DNA of 64,000 nucleotides from Desulforamulus reducens MI-1. GTDB lineage: Bacteria; Bacillota; Desulfotomaculia; Desulfotomaculales; Desulfotomaculaceae. The translations under genes were made by a program, and so were the position numbers. Location: assembly GCF_000016165.1 (NCBI RefSeq), contig NC_009253.1, positions 1,150,332 through 1,214,331 of the forward strand, written 5' to 3'. Under the pieces are notes generated by a model. The model saw nothing but the letters and a program-made list of their open reading frames with translations. It ran no database searches and had not been told where the DNA came from. Each line of letters begins with the position of its first letter. The stretch's first letter is position 1. Below are positions 10,164-18,005 of this stretch, piece after piece.

Positions 10164-11291
10164 GTGCAAATGCATGTAAGATCAATCGCCCGCGTGGATA
10201 AAAGAACAAAAGATCTAGCAAAAAGAATTCATGCAAATGAAATAGCTGTGATATGTCATCATGAATTGGATAAAGTAGCAGCAGACTCCTTAATTGCAGC
10301 TAAAGTTAAAGCGGTAGTCAATGCTGTACCTTCACTAAGTGATGATTATCCTAACCTAGGTCCAATAACACTCCTCGAGGCTGGTATACCGATTATTGAC
10401 AATGTTGGAAAAGAAGTTATGGAAAAGATTCAAGATGGAGTAGAACTGGAGATACGAGGAAACGTTGTTTATCTGGGTGGACAAATCTTGGCAGATGGAA
10501 TGATATTAACTCTCCAGCAAGTTAAAGAACACATGGAACAATCCCGAAGCCGTATGGATCGGGTTTTATCCCGTTTTATTCATAATACACTGGACTACGC
10601 CAAAAACGAGGTGGATTTTGTTTGTGGCGGGTTACGCATTCCAGAAGTTGGTACAACCTTTAAAGGTAGGCATACCTTAATTGTTGTAAGGGGACACAAT
10701 TATAAACAAGATTTAAATGCAATTAAATCTTACATTGATGAAGTTCAGCCCATATTAATCGGTGTCGATGGGGGTGCTGATGCATTACTGGAGTTTGGCT
10801 ATACACCTGATTTAATTATCGGAGATATGGACAGTACCACCGATAAAGCCCTCTGTAGTGGTGCGGAGCTGGTTGTGCATGCCTATCCAGATGGCAGAGC
10901 ACCGGGCATGGAAAGAATTGAGGCCATGGGATTATCTGCTAAGGTGTTTCCGGCGCCGGGTACCAGTGAAGATATAGCCATGATGTTGGCCTATGAAAAG
11001 GGGACTGAATTGATCGTTGCTGTAGGGACCCACTCCAATATGTTAGATTTTTTGGAGAAAGGGCGTAAAGGGATGGCCAGTACATTCCTGGTTCGACTAA
11101 AGGTTGGCGATATTCTGGTTGATGCAAAAGGGGTTAGTCAACTCTATAAGAGTCGCGTTAAGATGAAATACATTGGCCAAATACTGCTGGCGGGGCTTGT
11201 CCCACTGGTGGTGGTTATTGCAATGGCTCCTCCCACCCGGGAGCTATTCCGGCTACTGGTACTAAATGTACGTTTAATCTTTGGTATTTAG
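10164..11291 (+). CDS. steA: SteA-like cytokinetic ring protein, thiamine-pyrophosphokinase fold
   Basis: 375 aa, GTG start. A central thiamin-pyrophosphokinase-like catalytic region is visible (LIGVDGGADALLEFGYTPDLIIGDMDS, then APGTSEDIAMMLAYEKG), preceded by an unrelated N-terminal domain. It ends in one transmembrane helix (YIGQILLAGLVPLVVVIAMAP) and a short tail. SteA of Corynebacterium has this make-up and partners with SteB at the division ring. Here steB follows at 11 bp, so the pair is intact. A genuine thiamine-PPi role is unlikely given the membrane anchor and context. The family is well supported; the division role is inferred from actinobacterial work. Confidence 0.82.
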   Translation: MQMHVRSIARVDKRTKDLAKRIHANEIAVICHHELDKVAADSLIAAKVKAVVNAVPSLSDDYPNLGPITLLEAGIPIIDNVGKEVMEKIQDGVELEIRGNVVYLGGQILADGMILTLQQVKEHMEQSRSRMDRVLSRFIHNTLDYAKNEVDFVCGGLRIPEVGTTFKGRHTLIVVRGHNYKQDLNAIKSYIDEVQPILIGVDGGADALLEFGYTPDLIIGDMDSTTDKALCSGAELVVHAYPDGRAPGMERIEAMGLSAKVFPAPGTSEDIAMMLAYEKGTELIVAVGTHSNMLDFLEKGRKGMASTFLVRLKVGDILVDAKGVSQLYKSRVKMKYIGQILLAGLVPLVVVIAMAPPTRELFRLLVLNVRLIFGI

Positions 11292-11302
11292 GAGGAAGTC
11301 CT

Positions 11303-12223
11303 TTGATTATTGATTATCGCTACCACATTGCTTCCTTAGTGGCTGTTTTTATTGCCTTAGGCATAGGAATTTTGGTAGGTAGTGCCGTGTTAGGAAATGA
11401 GGGTATTGTTGAGCGTCAAAAGCAACTGGCAGATCGCTTAGAAATTCAATTAGAAGAGCTAAGAGATAAGAATGAAGCTGTACAAGCCAGAGCCAATAAT
11501 CTTGAAATAGACAACAATATACAAAAACAGTTTGAGAAACAGGTGTTACCTCCGCTGGTGGCTGGAAAGTTATCTGGCAAAAGGTTAGCCATTGTAGAAA
11601 CCAACAGTTATGGCTTTCGTGATGATTTAATTAATGCACTAACGATGGCAGGTGCCACTGTACAGTCGGTAACAACCGTTTTAGATGGTTTTGAATTAAC
11701 CAATCGCAAGGACCGCATCATTAGTGAATTGAATCTTAAAGAAAATGAAGATGAAAAAATTATCAAATTGTTGGCAGCAGAAACAGCCAGAGGTATTTTA
11801 ACCGGTGAAAAACAGGCTATGCTAAATACTTTGGCTCAGGTGGACTTGCTTGAGTTGTCCGGAGACTATGGTGTACCGATTGACGGTATAATATTCATCG
11901 GTGGCAGTCAGGACCAAACTCTCGTTAAAACAGAGAATTTGGATTATCCCATGATAGATTATTTTTTACAACAAAAACTCCCTGTTTTCGGAGTTGAGGA
12001 AACGAATGTAACCTTTTCTTACATGAAGTCCTATCAGAAGAAAAGGGTCAGCACGGTGGATAACGTTGAAACGGTTCCAGGCCAACTGGCGCTTGTTATG
12101 GCTATTGCAGGGAAACCAGGACATTATGGGGTTAAGCCCACTGCCAAACAGTTACTGCCACCCTTTGAGACAACTGGAGGTGTAGGAAGTGGCCAAAGTG
12201 TCAGTGGTAATACCCGCCCATAA
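11303..12223 (+). CDS. steB: SteB/MctB-like membrane protein ('copper transporter' family)
   Basis: 306 aa, TTG start behind AGGAGG. One N-terminal transmembrane helix (HIASLVAVFIALGIGILVGS) is followed by a coiled coil (~residues 38-75, rich in Q/E/L) and an extracytoplasmic alpha/beta domain. The IDYRYHIASLVAVFIALGIGI start is the hallmark of the DUF3186/MctB family. Mycobacterial MctB is linked to copper export, while corynebacterial SteB forms a cell-division complex with SteA. Adjacency to steA favours the second role. The 3' end overlaps the next glycosyltransferase gene by 35 bp, which implies coupling. Confidence 0.8.
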   Translation: MIIDYRYHIASLVAVFIALGIGILVGSAVLGNEGIVERQKQLADRLEIQLEELRDKNEAVQARANNLEIDNNIQKQFEKQVLPPLVAGKLSGKRLAIVETNSYGFRDDLINALTMAGATVQSVTTVLDGFELTNRKDRIISELNLKENEDEKIIKLLAAETARGILTGEKQAMLNTLAQVDLLELSGDYGVPIDGIIFIGGSQDQTLVKTENLDYPMIDYFLQQKLPVFGVEETNVTFSYMKSYQKKRVSTVDNVETVPGQLALVMAIAGKPGHYGVKPTAKQLLPPFETTGGVGSGQSVSGNTRP

Positions 12224-12899
12224 TGAAGCCAATAGAATTTCCGATACCATAAAAGGAGTTCAAAGGATTCCGGAGGTATCGGAAATTCTTGTGATCGATG
12301 ATGCATCCACAGATGGCACCGCTGAACTGGCGGAACAGACAGGAGCTACCGTAATTAGATTATCTAAAAATATGGGAAAAGGAGGGGCACTAAACGCTGG
12401 GGTAGCCAAGGCTTCCGGTGATATAGTGGCCCTTTTGGATGGCGATTTAGGAAGCAGTTCCAGTGAAGCTAGAGCTCTTATATTACCGGTTTTACATAAT
12501 ACTGCCGATATGACCATTGCCCAATTTCCCCGTGCCAAGAAAAAGGGTGGTTTTGGACTGGTAAAAAATCTGGCCCGATCCGGTATCCGATATTATGCAG
12601 GCTTAGAAAGCAATGCTCCGTTATCCGGTCAGAGGGTGATGACCCGACAGGTGTTGGAAACAGTTGTTCCCTTTGCCTCGGGTTATGGTGTTGAAGTGGC
12701 CTTAACCATTAAAGTTGCCCGAGCAGGATTTCGAGTTCTTGAGGTCCCCACACAAATGTCCCACGCAGAAACCGGCAGGGACCTAAGGGGTTTTATGCAC
12801 CGTGGCAAACAATTTGTTCATGTGGCCAGGGTACTGGCGGGCTGTTTTGTACAATATGGTTTTAATGGTTTTACCAGCGCCAAGGGTTGTCAAAAATAA
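12189..12899 (+). CDS. Family 2 glycosyltransferase
   Basis: 236 aa, GTG start 7 nt after GGAGGTG and overlapping steB. It has a GT-A fold with SVVIPAHNEANRI, ILVIDDASTDGTAELA (first DxD-like), NMGKGGALNAGVAKASGDIV and LLDGDLG (second acidic motif). The layout resembles dolichol-phosphate mannosyl/glucosyltransferase-like or glucosyl-3-phosphoglycerate synthase-like enzymes; acceptor and sugar cannot be told. There is no transmembrane segment, so it is probably cytosolic or peripheral. Its place between steB and an MraY-like gene suggests a lipid-linked cell-envelope glycan made near the division site (inference). Confidence 0.88.
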   Translation: MAKVSVVIPAHNEANRISDTIKGVQRIPEVSEILVIDDASTDGTAELAEQTGATVIRLSKNMGKGGALNAGVAKASGDIVALLDGDLGSSSSEARALILPVLHNTADMTIAQFPRAKKKGGFGLVKNLARSGIRYYAGLESNAPLSGQRVMTRQVLETVVPFASGYGVEVALTIKVARAGFRVLEVPTQMSHAETGRDLRGFMHRGKQFVHVARVLAGCFVQYGFNGFTSAKGCQK

Positions 12900-13003
12900 A
12901 TTTGGCTAGAATGGGGTATAGTTAACCATCATAGGCAATATAGATAGGACTACCAATGCGGTGATAGAAAGGAACTAAGTTTTTAAAGTCCTTGAGGTGT
13001 ACC

Positions 13004-13840
13004 ATGACACAACTTACTTATGTTTATTTTATTGTTTCTTTGCTGGTCTCCTATGGGGTGGCCAGAATAATCCTGCCAAGCATTTTGAAACTGATTACAG
13101 AGGCGGGCTATGTTAGAGCAAATTTTCGAGGGGATGCTATTCCAGTTGGAGTAGGACTTGTGTTTTTTATAAGCGTCCTTTTACCAACAAGCTTTGTACT
13201 ATTCCTAAATACAGATAGGTACCAACCCAGTGCCTTGCTCTATTTATTCGTCCTAGGTTCTATGACATTATTGGGTATGACCGATGACATCTTTGGTTCT
13301 CGGGCAGATAGTGGTCTAAAGGGACATATTAAAAAGATGCTCCGGGGGGAATTAACAACCGGGGGGTTAAAACTGGCGGCCGGGGGCGTCATGTCTATGG
13401 TTGTAGCTGTATCCATTAGTAGTCACTGGCAAGATATTGTCCTTAATACTCTGGTGATAGCCCTTTCTATCAATGCAATCAATTTATTGGACCTTCGGCC
13501 AGGTCGGGCTGGCAAGGGTTTTTTATTAGGAGGCATCCTCCTGTTTCTGGGTGGTTGGCCATCCTTTAATCTGGTTTGGTATGTCATGACAATGGGTGCT
13601 TTGTTAGCTTACCTCCCTACTGACCTGAAGGCTAAAGCTATGATGGGCGATACCGGTTCCAATGCCCTGGGGGCCACCATAGGCATAACTTCTGTACTGG
13701 TGTTACCGGAAACGGTTAAAGTCAGTTACCTAGTATTTTTAATAGCCTTTCATTTATTTACAGAGAAGTACAGTTTAACAAAAATCATTGAAAAAAATAA
13801 AACGCTCAATTATTTGGACCAATTAGGAAGAAATCAGTAA
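13004..13840 (+). CDS. MraY/WecA-like polyprenyl-phosphate sugar-1-phosphate transferase
   Basis: 278 aa from ATG 13004 (an in-frame TTG lies at 12992). Multi-pass membrane protein with about 8-9 hydrophobic helices. It has the family acidic loops MTDDIFGSRADSGLKGHIK and NLLDLRPGRAGKG, plus MMGDTGSNALGATIGI. These match glycosyltransferase family 4 (MraY, WecA, TagO), which transfer a sugar-1-phosphate to undecaprenyl phosphate. It is shorter than MraY (~320 aa), and the adjacent genes are not mur genes, so it is probably not the main MraY. A terminator follows. It is the fourth gene of the steA-steB-GT2 cluster. Confidence 0.85.
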   Translation: MTQLTYVYFIVSLLVSYGVARIILPSILKLITEAGYVRANFRGDAIPVGVGLVFFISVLLPTSFVLFLNTDRYQPSALLYLFVLGSMTLLGMTDDIFGSRADSGLKGHIKKMLRGELTTGGLKLAAGGVMSMVVAVSISSHWQDIVLNTLVIALSINAINLLDLRPGRAGKGFLLGGILLFLGGWPSFNLVWYVMTMGALLAYLPTDLKAKAMMGDTGSNALGATIGITSVLVLPETVKVSYLVFLIAFHLFTEKYSLTKIIEKNKTLNYLDQLGRNQ

Positions 13841-13915: not shown

Positions 13916-13970
13916 CTCTCCCATGTATTAAGTTGGTTGACAGCAGTAGTAAAATTTGGAGGTGACCCTG

Positions 13971-15104
13971 TTGGTAAATAAAGAACGAATTATTCATGAA
14001 TTTTTGGAAATGGTTCAGGTGGACAGTGAGTCTGGTGCAGAACGTCAAATAGCTGATTTATTAAAGGATAAGCTTACAGTTCTGGGCCTTGAGGTCGTTG
14101 AAGATAACGCCGGTTCTCACATTGAAGTTGGCCAGACAACGGGGAACATTATAGGTACCTTACCAGCTAATGGAGGAAAGGGACCTCTTTTATTGTTCTC
14201 TGCTCATATGGATACAGTAAAGCCTGGTAAAGGTGTTAAACCGATAAGAGAAAAGGGGATCATTTCTTCTGCTGGTGATACGATCCTGGGTTCCGATGAT
14301 AAAGCAGGAATTGCAGCCATACTAGAGGCCCTTCGTGTAATTGAAGAAAAGCAAATCAAGCACGGAGGCATTCAAGTGGTCTTCACCATAGCAGAAGAAA
14401 AGGGGTTAGTTGGGGCTAAAAGATTGGACTATGCCCTAATAAAGGCAAAACTGGGTTTTGTTTTAGACAGTGGTGGATCTCCGGGGGAGATCATTATCAA
14501 GGCACCTACCCAGTATAGCTTTAAAGCCGCGGTAAAGGGAAAAGCAGCCCATGCAGGGATTGCTCCCGAACATGGTATTAATGCGATTGTTGTTGCCTCC
14601 AATGCCATTGCAAATCTAAAGCTTGGACGTATTGACAAAGAGACAACTGCCAATATTGGGTTTATTTCTGGTGGTGTAGCCACCAATATTGTTCCTGAAA
14701 AAGTGGTTGTGGAGGGAGAAGCACGAAGTATAAACCCTGCAAAGGCAAAGGAACAAATTGATCACATGATAGAAGAATTTGAAAAAGCTGCTGCTAAATT
14801 TAGCGCCAGTGTAGATATAGAACCGGTGAAGCAATATGATAACATTGATTTGGCTGAGGATTCTTTACCAGTGCAGATTGCCCTCAGGGCTGCAGAAAAT
14901 GCCCAAATAAAACCTCACTTGGGGCAGACTGGTGGTGGAAGTGATGCCAACGTCTTTAATGGCCAGGGGATTGCCTGTGCCAACCTTGGCATTGGCATGT
15001 CCAAGGTCCACACAACAGAAGAGTTTATCACCGAAGAACATTTGGTAGAAAACGCCAAGTATGTGGTGGAAATCATCAAGGTAGCCCAAGAAATAGGGGC
15101 CTAA
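13971..15104 (+). CDS. M20 family metallopeptidase (PepT-like)
   Basis: 377 aa from TTG 13971, chosen because GGAGGTG (13957-13963) is 7 nt upstream; the frame is open to TTG 13956. Zinc-ligand motifs are visible: LLFSAHMDTVKPGKG (His and Asp), ILGSDDKAGIAAILE (bridging Asp), FTIAEEKGLVGA (catalytic Glu pair) and GQTGGGSDANVF with a late HTTEEF His. A dimerisation insert lies in the middle (about 180-290). The family includes tripeptide aminopeptidases and carboxypeptidases such as B. subtilis YqjE; the substrate is not predictable. It is flanked by terminators, so probably monocistronic. Confidence 0.88.
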   Translation: MVNKERIIHEFLEMVQVDSESGAERQIADLLKDKLTVLGLEVVEDNAGSHIEVGQTTGNIIGTLPANGGKGPLLLFSAHMDTVKPGKGVKPIREKGIISSAGDTILGSDDKAGIAAILEALRVIEEKQIKHGGIQVVFTIAEEKGLVGAKRLDYALIKAKLGFVLDSGGSPGEIIIKAPTQYSFKAAVKGKAAHAGIAPEHGINAIVVASNAIANLKLGRIDKETTANIGFISGGVATNIVPEKVVVEGEARSINPAKAKEQIDHMIEEFEKAAAKFSASVDIEPVKQYDNIDLAEDSLPVQIALRAAENAQIKPHLGQTGGGSDANVFNGQGIACANLGIGMSKVHTTEEFITEEHLVENAKYVVEIIKVAQEIGA

Positions 15105-15280: not shown

Positions 15281-16366
15281 TTGATTCGCATTCGCCGAGG
15301 TGTGGCTAAGGAGATTACCTCGCGTAGACAAGGGATTACTGAGTTTCTCGTTTCAGTGGAGGGTGAAAACCAAAGGGCCGTAAATTATGATGACCTCACT
15401 GGGCCAGTGGAAACAGGTGACGAGGTTCTTTTAAATACCACCGCTGTGTATAAAAAATTGGGCACCGGGGGTGTTCATTTTGTTATGGGAAACCTGTCTG
15501 GTTCGGGGCACGATGTTTCGCAAGAGGGACATATTATGAAACTACGCTATAGCCCTTGTCAAGTAAAGGTAATCTCGGTGGAAGAACAGGAGAGTCCCTA
15601 TGCGGAGACTATGAATCAGGTGGAATCTCTGGCGGGAACCCCTGTAATTATAGGTACTCTCCATAGTATGCTGGCCCCGGTGGCTGCTGCCATAAAAAAG
15701 TTAAGCAAGGCTTCATTAAAGGTTGCTTACTTGATGACAGACGGTGCCGCTGTTCCCATAGGTTTATCTAGAATGGTTACGGAGCTTAAAAATAAGGGGC
15801 TAATTGATAAAACTATTACCTGTGGACATGCCTTTGGTGGAGATTTTGAAGCAATTAATATTTATACCGGGCTTTTAGCCTGTAGAGCGGTGGCGAAGGC
15901 CGATGTGATCCTTGTGGCCATGGGGCCTGGAATTGTTGGTAGCGGCTCCCGCTATGGTTTTACAGGAGTTGAACAGGGTGAGATCGTAAACGCAGTAAAT
16001 ATTCTTGGCGGCAAACCACTTACCATCCCCAGAATTAGTTTTGCAGATAACCGGGAGAGGCACCGGGGCATCAGTCATCATACACAAACAGCCCTGGGGA
16101 AAATTGCTTTAACCAAGTCCACTGTGGTATTACCAAAGTTGGCACCGGAAAAGATGGAATTGGTGTTTAAACAGTTGGAGGACAGTGGGATCAGCCAGAA
16201 GCATGATGTTGCCATTGTTGATGCTAGCCCGGCATTGGAAGCTCTGCAAGAATATAATATCAGGGTTACCACCATGGGGCGGTCCGTACAACAAGACCCG
16301 GAATTTTTCCTGGCAGCTGGAGCTGCGGGTGTTTATCTTATGGCTCACCTGGAAATGTTAGTTTAA
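15281..16366 (+). CDS. DUF3866 family protein
   Basis: 361 aa, TTG start behind AAGGAGG. The N-terminus (RIRRGVAKEITSRRQGITEF) and the GTGGVHFVMGNL segment are those of DUF3866. The rest is an alpha/beta protein with glycine loops (AMGPGIVGSGSRYGFTG) and no signal peptide or transmembrane segment. The family has no established function. It is commonly found close to spoIIM in spore formers, as here. Its 3' end overlaps the convergent mciZ-like gene by 9 bp. Confidence 0.85.
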   Translation: MIRIRRGVAKEITSRRQGITEFLVSVEGENQRAVNYDDLTGPVETGDEVLLNTTAVYKKLGTGGVHFVMGNLSGSGHDVSQEGHIMKLRYSPCQVKVISVEEQESPYAETMNQVESLAGTPVIIGTLHSMLAPVAAAIKKLSKASLKVAYLMTDGAAVPIGLSRMVTELKNKGLIDKTITCGHAFGGDFEAINIYTGLLACRAVAKADVILVAMGPGIVGSGSRYGFTGVEQGEIVNAVNILGGKPLTIPRISFADNRERHRGISHHTQTALGKIALTKSTVVLPKLAPEKMELVFKQLEDSGISQKHDVAIVDASPALEALQEYNIRVTTMGRSVQQDPEFFLAAGAAGVYLMAHLEMLV

Positions 16367-16489
16367 TTTGGCATTAATCAAGTTTTTTACGGTACCATAC
16401 TGTCTGGCATATTGCTGAATAAGTTTACATAAATCACTCGCCTTGCAAAGGAAGTAAATTCGGTCTGAGTAAACATAAAGTTGTGACAT
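16358..16489 (-). CDS. mciZ: 43-aa MciZ-like FtsZ inhibitor peptide
   Basis: A small ORF on the minus strand, ATG at 16489, with AGGAGGG 6 nt upstream. The peptide reads MSQLYVYSDRIYFLC then KASDLCKLIQQYARQYG and TVKNLINAKLN. From memory of B. subtilis MciZ (40 aa), the second part aligns without gaps: K-A, acidic-aliphatic, Y-x-R-x-aromatic, V-K-x2-I at matching positions. MciZ blocks FtsZ assembly in the mother cell. In B. subtilis mciZ also maps close to spoIIM, and a sigma-E-like promoter precedes this copy. The coding call is strong from the ribosome site; the MciZ identity is a motif and synteny inference. Confidence 0.6.
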   Translation of the reverse strand: MSQLYVYSDRIYFLCKASDLCKLIQQYARQYGTVKNLINAKLN

Positions 16490-16517
16490 GTTTGTCCCTC
16501 CTTATTGGTTATGGGAC

Positions 16518-16546
16518 AGTATATGAAGAGCACTCTGACTTTATGA
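16518..16546 (-). promoter_or_regulatory. Putative sigma-E promoter of the mciZ-like gene
   Basis: On the minus strand, -35 TCATAAA (16546-16540), 14-bp spacer, -10 CATATACT (16525-16518). Sigma-E consensus is KMATATT-N14-CATACAnT. A start near 16510 would leave a ~20-nt leader containing the ribosome site. Fit is good at -10 and fair at -35. Confidence 0.45.
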
Positions 16547-16583: not shown

Positions 16584-17252
16584 ATGAAATTACTAACCCT
16601 CAGTGCCAATGCCAGTGGGGCAGCAAAGGCCGCCCAGGAGGGGATGGTGGTGATGGTGGTGGATATTATTGATATGTCCACTACCCTGGAAGCAGCCATT
16701 GATGGCGGGGCTCTGGCAGTGCTGGGAGCAAGTCCTGATACTTCGGCACCACCAGTAGCTCTTAATCCAGAGGCTATTGGTCAAAGAGCAGCTCAGCTTG
16801 CACTGGCCGCAGGAAGCAGTGTGATATTGGTGACGGAGCCTAGGGTAGGTACAGATTATGATCGGGCTAACAATGCTTCACGACTGCTGAAGGGTGTTCG
16901 ACAGGGAGGGGGAGAAGTGACATCAATTATCCCTAACCTAGGTGCAGAAACACCTAAAATTTGCGACTTGGCAGGAAAAGTTGTGGTAGCGGCCACGGGG
17001 ACTGGAGGGGTTGCCTACGATGCGGCCTTTACCGCCGGTGCACCTGCAGTTATCACCGGAACTGTTGCCCGAACTATGAAAAAAAAGGGATCTGCTCCGG
17101 CCAGAGCGGCTGCCCGCAGGGCCATTGAAGCAGCCACACAACATCAAACAGGGATTTGTGTGGTGGCAGCCAGTGCTAATTCCCTGGAAGATGTGCTGGC
17201 CGCAGAATATATTATGAAGATGATTGTGGAAGAAGGCTTTTTAACGCTATAA
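16584..17252 (+). CDS. ComB-like (2-phosphosulfolactate phosphatase fold) protein
   Basis: 222 aa, ATG start behind GAAGGGAG. The VVMVVDIIDMSTTLEAAIDGGALAVLGASP segment in the N-terminal half parallels the VVIDVLRATTT-type core of ComB. Later glycine/alanine-rich strands (VVVAATGTGGVAYDAAFTAGA) also fit. ComB dephosphorylates 2-phosphosulfolactate in coenzyme M and sulfolactate pathways, but no other such gene is nearby and B. subtilis relatives are only partly understood. The assignment is to fold level. A terminator follows directly. Confidence 0.55.
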   Translation: MKLLTLSANASGAAKAAQEGMVVMVVDIIDMSTTLEAAIDGGALAVLGASPDTSAPPVALNPEAIGQRAAQLALAAGSSVILVTEPRVGTDYDRANNASRLLKGVRQGGGEVTSIIPNLGAETPKICDLAGKVVVAATGTGGVAYDAAFTAGAPAVITGTVARTMKKKGSAPARAAARRAIEAATQHQTGICVVAASANSLEDVLAAEYIMKMIVEEGFLTL

Positions 17253-17298: not shown

Positions 17299-17328
17299 TA
17301 CTATTTACCAGATAGATCCGCATAGATA
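17299..17328 (+). promoter_or_regulatory. Possible sigma-E promoter of spoIIM
   Basis: TACTATT (17299-17305), 15-bp spacer, CATAGATA (17321-17328) approximates KMATATT-N14-CATACAnT. spoIIM is sigma-E dependent in B. subtilis. The site would place the transcript start after the upstream ATG at 17328, supporting the later start codon. Confidence 0.35.
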
Positions 17329-17372
17329 TGTACAGAAATCTCCAACAGAATGGATATGGGCGGGGTGATCCC

Positions 17373-18005
17373 TTGGCAAATGCATTCAAAAAACTATGCA
17401 GATCTTCCTTACGGGACAGTTGGCCAATTTATTTACTGGCTCTTATTACGTTAATGGCAGGAATTGGCTTTGGCAGCTTGGGTGTACATGCAATGCAGGA
17501 TGAGACATTTGGACAGCTTACGGAATATCTGGATAACTTTATAAGTAAGGCCGGCAGCGTAATTGTAGATCGACCTCTGGTTGTAAAAAATACAATCCTT
17601 AATAATTTATTGTTTATTGGGATTATTTACTTTCTTGGGCTAACAGTGGTTGGGACCCCGGCCATTTTGGCTCTTTTATTTGCCCGGGGTTATTCTTTGG
17701 GGTTTACCTTTACTTTTCTTACCCGCCAAAGGGCAAGTGAAGGGATTGTTCTTGCTTTAACCTCTGTGGTACCGCAAAACATTCTACTTATACCGGCCAT
17801 TTTTTTAGCCAGTGTGGCAGCATTATCTTTTTCATGGTTACTTATAAAAAGATTTTCCAATTCAAGATTACCTGTAATGCCGGGGTTAGTTGGCTATCAT
17901 GTTTTAATGATGATTGTCTGTAGCATAGTAGCTGCTGCTGGACTGGTAGAAGCATTTATTACCCCAGATTTAATAAAGGCCGCCGCAAATTTTATAAATT
18001 CGTAA
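17373..18005 (+). CDS. spoIIM: Stage II sporulation protein M
   Basis: 210 aa from TTG 17373, preferred over ATG 17328 because GGGGTGAT precedes it and a sigma-E-like promoter overlaps the earlier ATG. B. subtilis SpoIIM is about this length. It is an integral membrane protein with about five helices (IYLLALITLMAGIGFGSLG; LLFIGIIYFLGLTVVGTPAILALLF; NILLIPAIFLASVAALSFSWLL; a C-terminal helix). SpoIIM acts with SpoIID and SpoIIP in septal peptidoglycan removal and engulfment. Its neighbours (xerD, deoB, dacF, sigF) match the Bacillus region. Confidence 0.92.
   Translation: MANAFKKLCRSSLRDSWPIYLLALITLMAGIGFGSLGVHAMQDETFGQLTEYLDNFISKAGSVIVDRPLVVKNTILNNLLFIGIIYFLGLTVVGTPAILALLFARGYSLGFTFTFLTRQRASEGIVLALTSVVPQNILLIPAIFLASVAALSFSWLLIKRFSNSRLPVMPGLVGYHVLMMIVCSIVAAAGLVEAFITPDLIKAAANFINS

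Follow-up and report, generated by a model that had tools for sequence, protein, structure and literature searches.

A probable mciZ ortholog opposite spoIIM in Desulforamulus reducens and the distribution of its family beyond Bacillales

MciZ inhibits FtsZ specifically during sporulation and has been studied in Bacillus. In the mother cell of B. subtilis, the peptide is switched on by sigma-E and helps to block the use of the second polar Z-ring (PMC6126333). It acts on helix H10 and strand 9 of FtsZ (PMC8456036), and in the published complex the C-terminal sheet of FtsZ is completed by the MciZ hairpin (PMC4929429). FtsZ filaments are thereby capped, the capped face being named the minus or the plus end depending on the paper (PMC4929429, PMC11938149). 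In the part of the literature reached by full-text searches, no account of MciZ from organisms other than those of the Bacillus type was found. A much-used list of sporulation genes from 2012 (PMC3533761) leaves mciZ out of its main text, so it seems that comparative work has passed over the gene on account of its small size.

The gene described here, which is very probably an ortholog of B. subtilis mciZ, lies in a stretch of 64,000 nucleotides of Desulforamulus reducens MI-1 (NC_009253.1, positions 1,150,332 to 1,214,331), referred to as the window. It occupies positions 16358-16489 of the minus strand, starts with ATG and has 43 codons, giving a product of 43 aa (MSQLYVYSDRIYFLCKASDLCKLIQQYARQYGTVKNLINAKLN). 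The ribosome-binding site AGGAGGG (16496-16502, minus strand) is found 6 nt 5' of the start codon, so that the small minus-strand ORF and its Shine-Dalgarno sequence are present as an earlier note on this DNA had described them; an SD-like sequence is also retained among the members of the genus. The mciZ gene converges on a DUF3866 gene (15281-16366, plus strand), with a tail-to-tail overlap of 9 nt between both 3' ends, and is divergent from a gene for a 222-aa protein (16584-17252, plus strand), for which no Pfam family is known. It is also divergent from spoIIM (17328-18005, plus strand; Pfam SpoIIM, E 9e-28), which starts about 0.8 kb away. The 222-aa protein shows 75-83% identity within the genus and 53-61% in other families, its gene being located there between mciZ and spoIIM, and it may belong to the same sporulation unit as these two genes.

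Farther downstream in the window, a SASP gene, DUF441 and an XerC/D-like recombinase are named by Pfam, while other genes look, by inspection, like deoB, pdp, dacF, spoIIA, sigF and spoVA; the locus is therefore in a sporulation neighbourhood. On the other side, an M20 family peptidase (pepT-like) gene is found at 13956-15104 (plus strand). In one family of the sample (f16), it is this peptidase gene that directly adjoins mciZ, in convergent orientation; unlike in the window, neither the DUF3866 gene nor that of the 222-aa protein was seen at the mciZ locus of this family. As a separate observation, the region 10164-13840, a few kb upstream, encodes SteA-like and MctB-family proteins with a glycosyltransferase, the families being named after actinobacterial proteins.

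The earlier note had stated that stops or indels in relatives would speak against the gene. The ORF is matched at the same place in all eight other genomes of the genus, with 59-74% identity, and it is intact in seven of them. In the eighth, G006 (L010:1560-1640), the start and the body of mciZ are in different frames, as a result of either real loss or a draft assembly error. Among the eight intact copies of the genus, that of the window included, pooled pN/pS is 0.24 in the coding frame, while the two remaining forward frames give about 1.0 and 1.3; the value of 0.30 in one reverse frame is due to its sharing third positions with the coding frame. The ORF is under purifying selection.

Upstream of the gene, a sigma-E-type promoter is formed by a -35 element, TCATAAA (16540-16546, minus strand), and a -10 element, CATATACT (16518-16525, minus strand). 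The whole, TCATAAA-N14-CATATACT (16518-16546), ends 28 nt 5' of the mciZ start and is exactly as previously described. With the pattern KMATAWW-N14-CATAHAHT, a slightly relaxed form of the general sigma-E consensus, this promoter was the only perfect match on both strands of the 64-kb window, 0.03 matches being expected from shuffled sequences. The promoter is conserved within the genus, and so is the leader GTCCCATAAC between the -10 element and the ribosome-binding site (16508-16517, minus strand), which is kept in all genus copies, with variation in its last bases, and in one other family as well (L021). Moreover, the best sigma-E-type score was at least 13 out of 15 in 42 of the 55 ortholog upstream regions, compared with 11% of composition-matched random sequences, bearing in mind that G039 is counted twice and that the loci are related rather than independent. 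The sigE gene itself is present in the genome, with a match of 420 bits, over the cut-off. By analogy with B. subtilis, the mciZ ortholog would be under sigma-E control and expressed in the mother cell.

Such strong conservation of promoter and leader, together with the 9-nt overlap of two convergent genes, could also be expected if the locus acted as an RNA: sigma-E would then drive an antisense transcript against the 3' end of DUF3866, and the ORF would be incidental. This is very unlikely: apart from the reverse frame with the same third positions, the coding frame alone has a low pN/pS, the protein is conserved in family f16, where no DUF3866 gene was seen at the spot, and no Rfam match was obtained. 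The antisense-RNA explanation was rejected on the basis of selection and synteny.

As regards the identity of the protein encoded, the Pfam family MciZ (PF13072) is the top match of the window protein, with 15.5 bits and an E value of 0.015, and a six-frame search of the whole genome gave no other match to MciZ at E<=10. The profile check proposed in the earlier note was thus borne out as to the family and its uniqueness, but not as to the score, which is below the Pfam gathering cut-off of 22.2, and consequently a Pfam search would not name the protein; no match was found in NCBIfam. We read this miss as a limited sensitivity of the profile for the genus, because profile homology, fold, length and context of MciZ were found; strictly speaking, Pfam does not certify the window protein, taken alone, as a member.

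Within the order, the Pfam MciZ profile gave matches above cut-off in 21 of 113 genomes, the best reaching 36.7 bits, and the loci fetched in this way adjoin spoIIM or the same neighbour genes. When the window protein alone was used as query, with no recourse to Pfam, orthologs were recovered in 27 of the 113 genomes at E<=0.01, all of them at the same loci, and several of these genomes are above the Pfam cut-off (G039, G095-G098, G108, G109 and G112). A profile of 27 orthologs, searched against the PDB, retrieved B. subtilis MciZ first (2mrw, E 4e-5; 4u39_J, E 1.4e-4), in an ungapped alignment with the MciZ chains over residues 1-38; this result is partly circular, since part of the alignment had been recruited with Pfam MciZ. 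Narrower profiles fall short: that of the genus alone did not find MciZ in the PDB, and one of 14 closer orthologs found it only in third place, at an E value of 0.08, below significance. The sequence argument is therefore a transitive chain through intermediate orthologs. A direct comparison of the genus alignment with the single B. subtilis sequence by hhalign was in register but weak, with a probability of 7.7%, and a scan of genome contigs with a seven-row alignment gave six named loci, mostly of the Pelotomaculum type.

The MciZ-like proteins of Pelotomaculum and other Desulfotomaculales, which are above the Pfam cut-off, are among the closest known counterparts of the window protein. Like it, they are encoded opposite spoIIM, have the same length, carry a T-V-x-E-L-I-type motif and end in N or H, and several were recognised from the window protein alone; unlike it, they retain G-K and the equivalent of Arg20. 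The window protein, with 43 aa, is encoded by a small stand-alone gene of the expected size of about 40 residues; of the 55 ortholog loci, 36 give a product of 42 aa. Four orthologs (L003, L009, L144 and L148) have C-terminal extensions of about 9 to about 60 residues past the conserved end. The last residue before the stop codon is Asn or His in 49 of the 55 loci (L002-L098), the preceding ones being variable.

The position opposite spoIIM extends far beyond the genus. In the class, 85 near-complete genomes were searched with the 27-ortholog profile, which detected exactly one locus each in 51; mciZ was divergent from spoIIM in all 49 genomes carrying both on one contig, in 47 cases within 2 kb. 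Of 398 genomes drawn from the phylum, 63 gave a match, and 51 of these are outside the order; here the two genes were divergent in 50 of 50 testable genomes, 43 times within 3 kb. Three genomes outside the order reach 63-71 bits against Pfam MciZ, their sequences being of the GKAWEV type and close to that of B. subtilis; in these genomes spoIIM is 2.0, 3.0 and 8.5 kb away, always divergent. The context is thus shared with MciZ of the Bacillus type, which agrees with the placing of mciZ in the spoIIM neighbourhood by the earlier note. Its further suggestion, that a clostridial copy would extend the MciZ system, holds as far as the extension goes but understated the scope, the family being found well beyond this copy. 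Only 10 of the 51 genomes outside the order pass the Pfam cut-off, which indicates that the family is under-recognised.

A chance ORF resembling MciZ might be suspected from the shortness of the gene and the weak profile score of the single sequence. This is extremely improbable given that place and orientation are conserved over the class and the phylum, that the ORF is under selection and that its promoter match is unique in the window; selection and synteny led to the rejection of this explanation too. On the other hand, about one third of the class genomes with spoIIM have no mciZ copy at the threshold used. Three loci scored as lacking the gene (L124, L122 and L110) have recognisable or possibly decayed copies beside spoIIM, and in the others that were examined, families f2, f8 and f15 included, no copy was found there.

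The structure of the window protein was predicted with AlphaFold2 without templates, from an input of the protein and six orthologs that contained no Bacillus sequence. The model has strands at residues 3-7 and 10-14, forming a hairpin, and helices at 17-31 and 34-42, with a mean pLDDT of 86.6: this is the fold of MciZ as bound to FtsZ, a beta-hairpin followed by a helix, and it fits the published description of the hairpin as the completing part of the C-terminal sheet of FtsZ (PMC4929429). With the 43-aa model as query, nothing significant came from Foldseek alone. When the 112 best chains from Foldseek were submitted to VIA-align, chain 4u39_J, which is MciZ in the FtsZ:MciZ crystal, ranked first, with 36 of 36 residues superposed at 1.4 Å, 19% identity and a Z score of 4.7, modest because the chain is tiny, against 3.1 for the runner-up; the AlphaFold2 network may have met 4u39 in training.

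At the level of single residues, the window protein was compared with the B. subtilis MciZ sequence taken from PMC5045927. The ungapped alignment proposed in the earlier note, with KA, Y-x-R-x-aromatic and V-K-x2-I in register, was reproduced with an offset of one residue. Both proteins are alike in length (40 vs 43 aa) and in their ungapped match over 36-38 residues (PF13072; 2mrw, 4u39), in the predicted hairpin-helix fold and in the sigma-E-type promoter, as well as in the divergent spoIIM of genomes with strong MciZ matches; they differ in their low identity (the 19% of the structural alignment), in the score of the window protein alone under the Pfam cut-off and in several positions. Every genus copy has Cys in place of Arg20 of B. 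subtilis, at Gly14 the genus shows C, A or S (Cys in the window protein), Tyr32 is replaced by Thr in the window protein and almost throughout the orthologs of the class, and the C-terminus is N instead of P, positions 16358-16363 of the window encoding LN-stop. A 2015 study reportedly found Arg20 of B. subtilis MciZ to be important; it is not an established family-defining residue. Arg is present at this position in 29 of 53 distinct orthologs, and it is therefore not a fixed trait even among them.

These replacements raise the question of whether, in this genus, a protein that is MciZ by descent may have acquired a new target or ceased to cap FtsZ, binding another mother-cell protein or another FtsZ surface. 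The changes at positions 20 and 14 run throughout the genus, whereas in other families G is mostly retained and R often is, and the genus is a tight sequence group of its own that a narrow profile does not link to MciZ. Such a shift is nevertheless unlikely. The mciZ ORF is under purifying selection, the model superposes on FtsZ-bound MciZ, locus and promoter are the same as in the orthologs, position 20 varies in other families as well (R in the 29 of 53 mentioned), and the FtsZ of the genome retains the matching subdomain. The ftsZ gene is indeed present, and the C-terminal subdomain of its product (residues 207-309) has 66% identity to that of B. subtilis, with 50% over residues 268-309.

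Profile, structure, promoter and synteny agree, and orthologs above the Pfam cut-off occupy the same locus in the order, so that the MciZ identity first put forward in the earlier note is upheld. The best explanation, in which we have high confidence, is an mciZ ortholog that would be driven by sigma-E and cap FtsZ in the mother cell; mother-cell expression, FtsZ binding and capping are here proposed for the window protein by analogy with B. subtilis. The 43-aa protein, predicted to fold as a beta-hairpin followed by two helices, would add the strands of the hairpin to the sheet of the FtsZ C-terminal subdomain and cover the polymerisation face, as a result of which FtsZ filaments would be capped and shortened, and no second Z-ring would be used in the mother cell. 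The window protein would in this respect act like SulA and MinC, which inhibit FtsZ assembly by likewise covering the C-terminal polymerisation face (PMC11938149). SulA and MinC are larger than MciZ and not sporulation-specific, and to our knowledge they are unrelated to it in sequence.

Family and mechanism are known; what is new with respect to the literature found is this member, the window protein, and the breadth of the family. The distribution of MciZ is wider than Bacillales and probably older. It seems likely that mciZ is an old sporulation gene of the phylum and not an invention of Bacillales, which has kept its place opposite spoIIM in families of both the Bacillus-like and the clostridial type and has escaped notice through its shortness and its frequent scores under the cut-off. 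If this is true, an FtsZ-based block of mother-cell division would belong to the ancestral programme of sporulation, and the Cys20 form of this genus would be one of its lineage variants. A widespread clostridial family fixed opposite spoIIM suggests that endospore formation has long included the shut-off of mother-cell division; in addition, the family supplies many diverged natural candidates for FtsZ-capping peptides to structure-function work.
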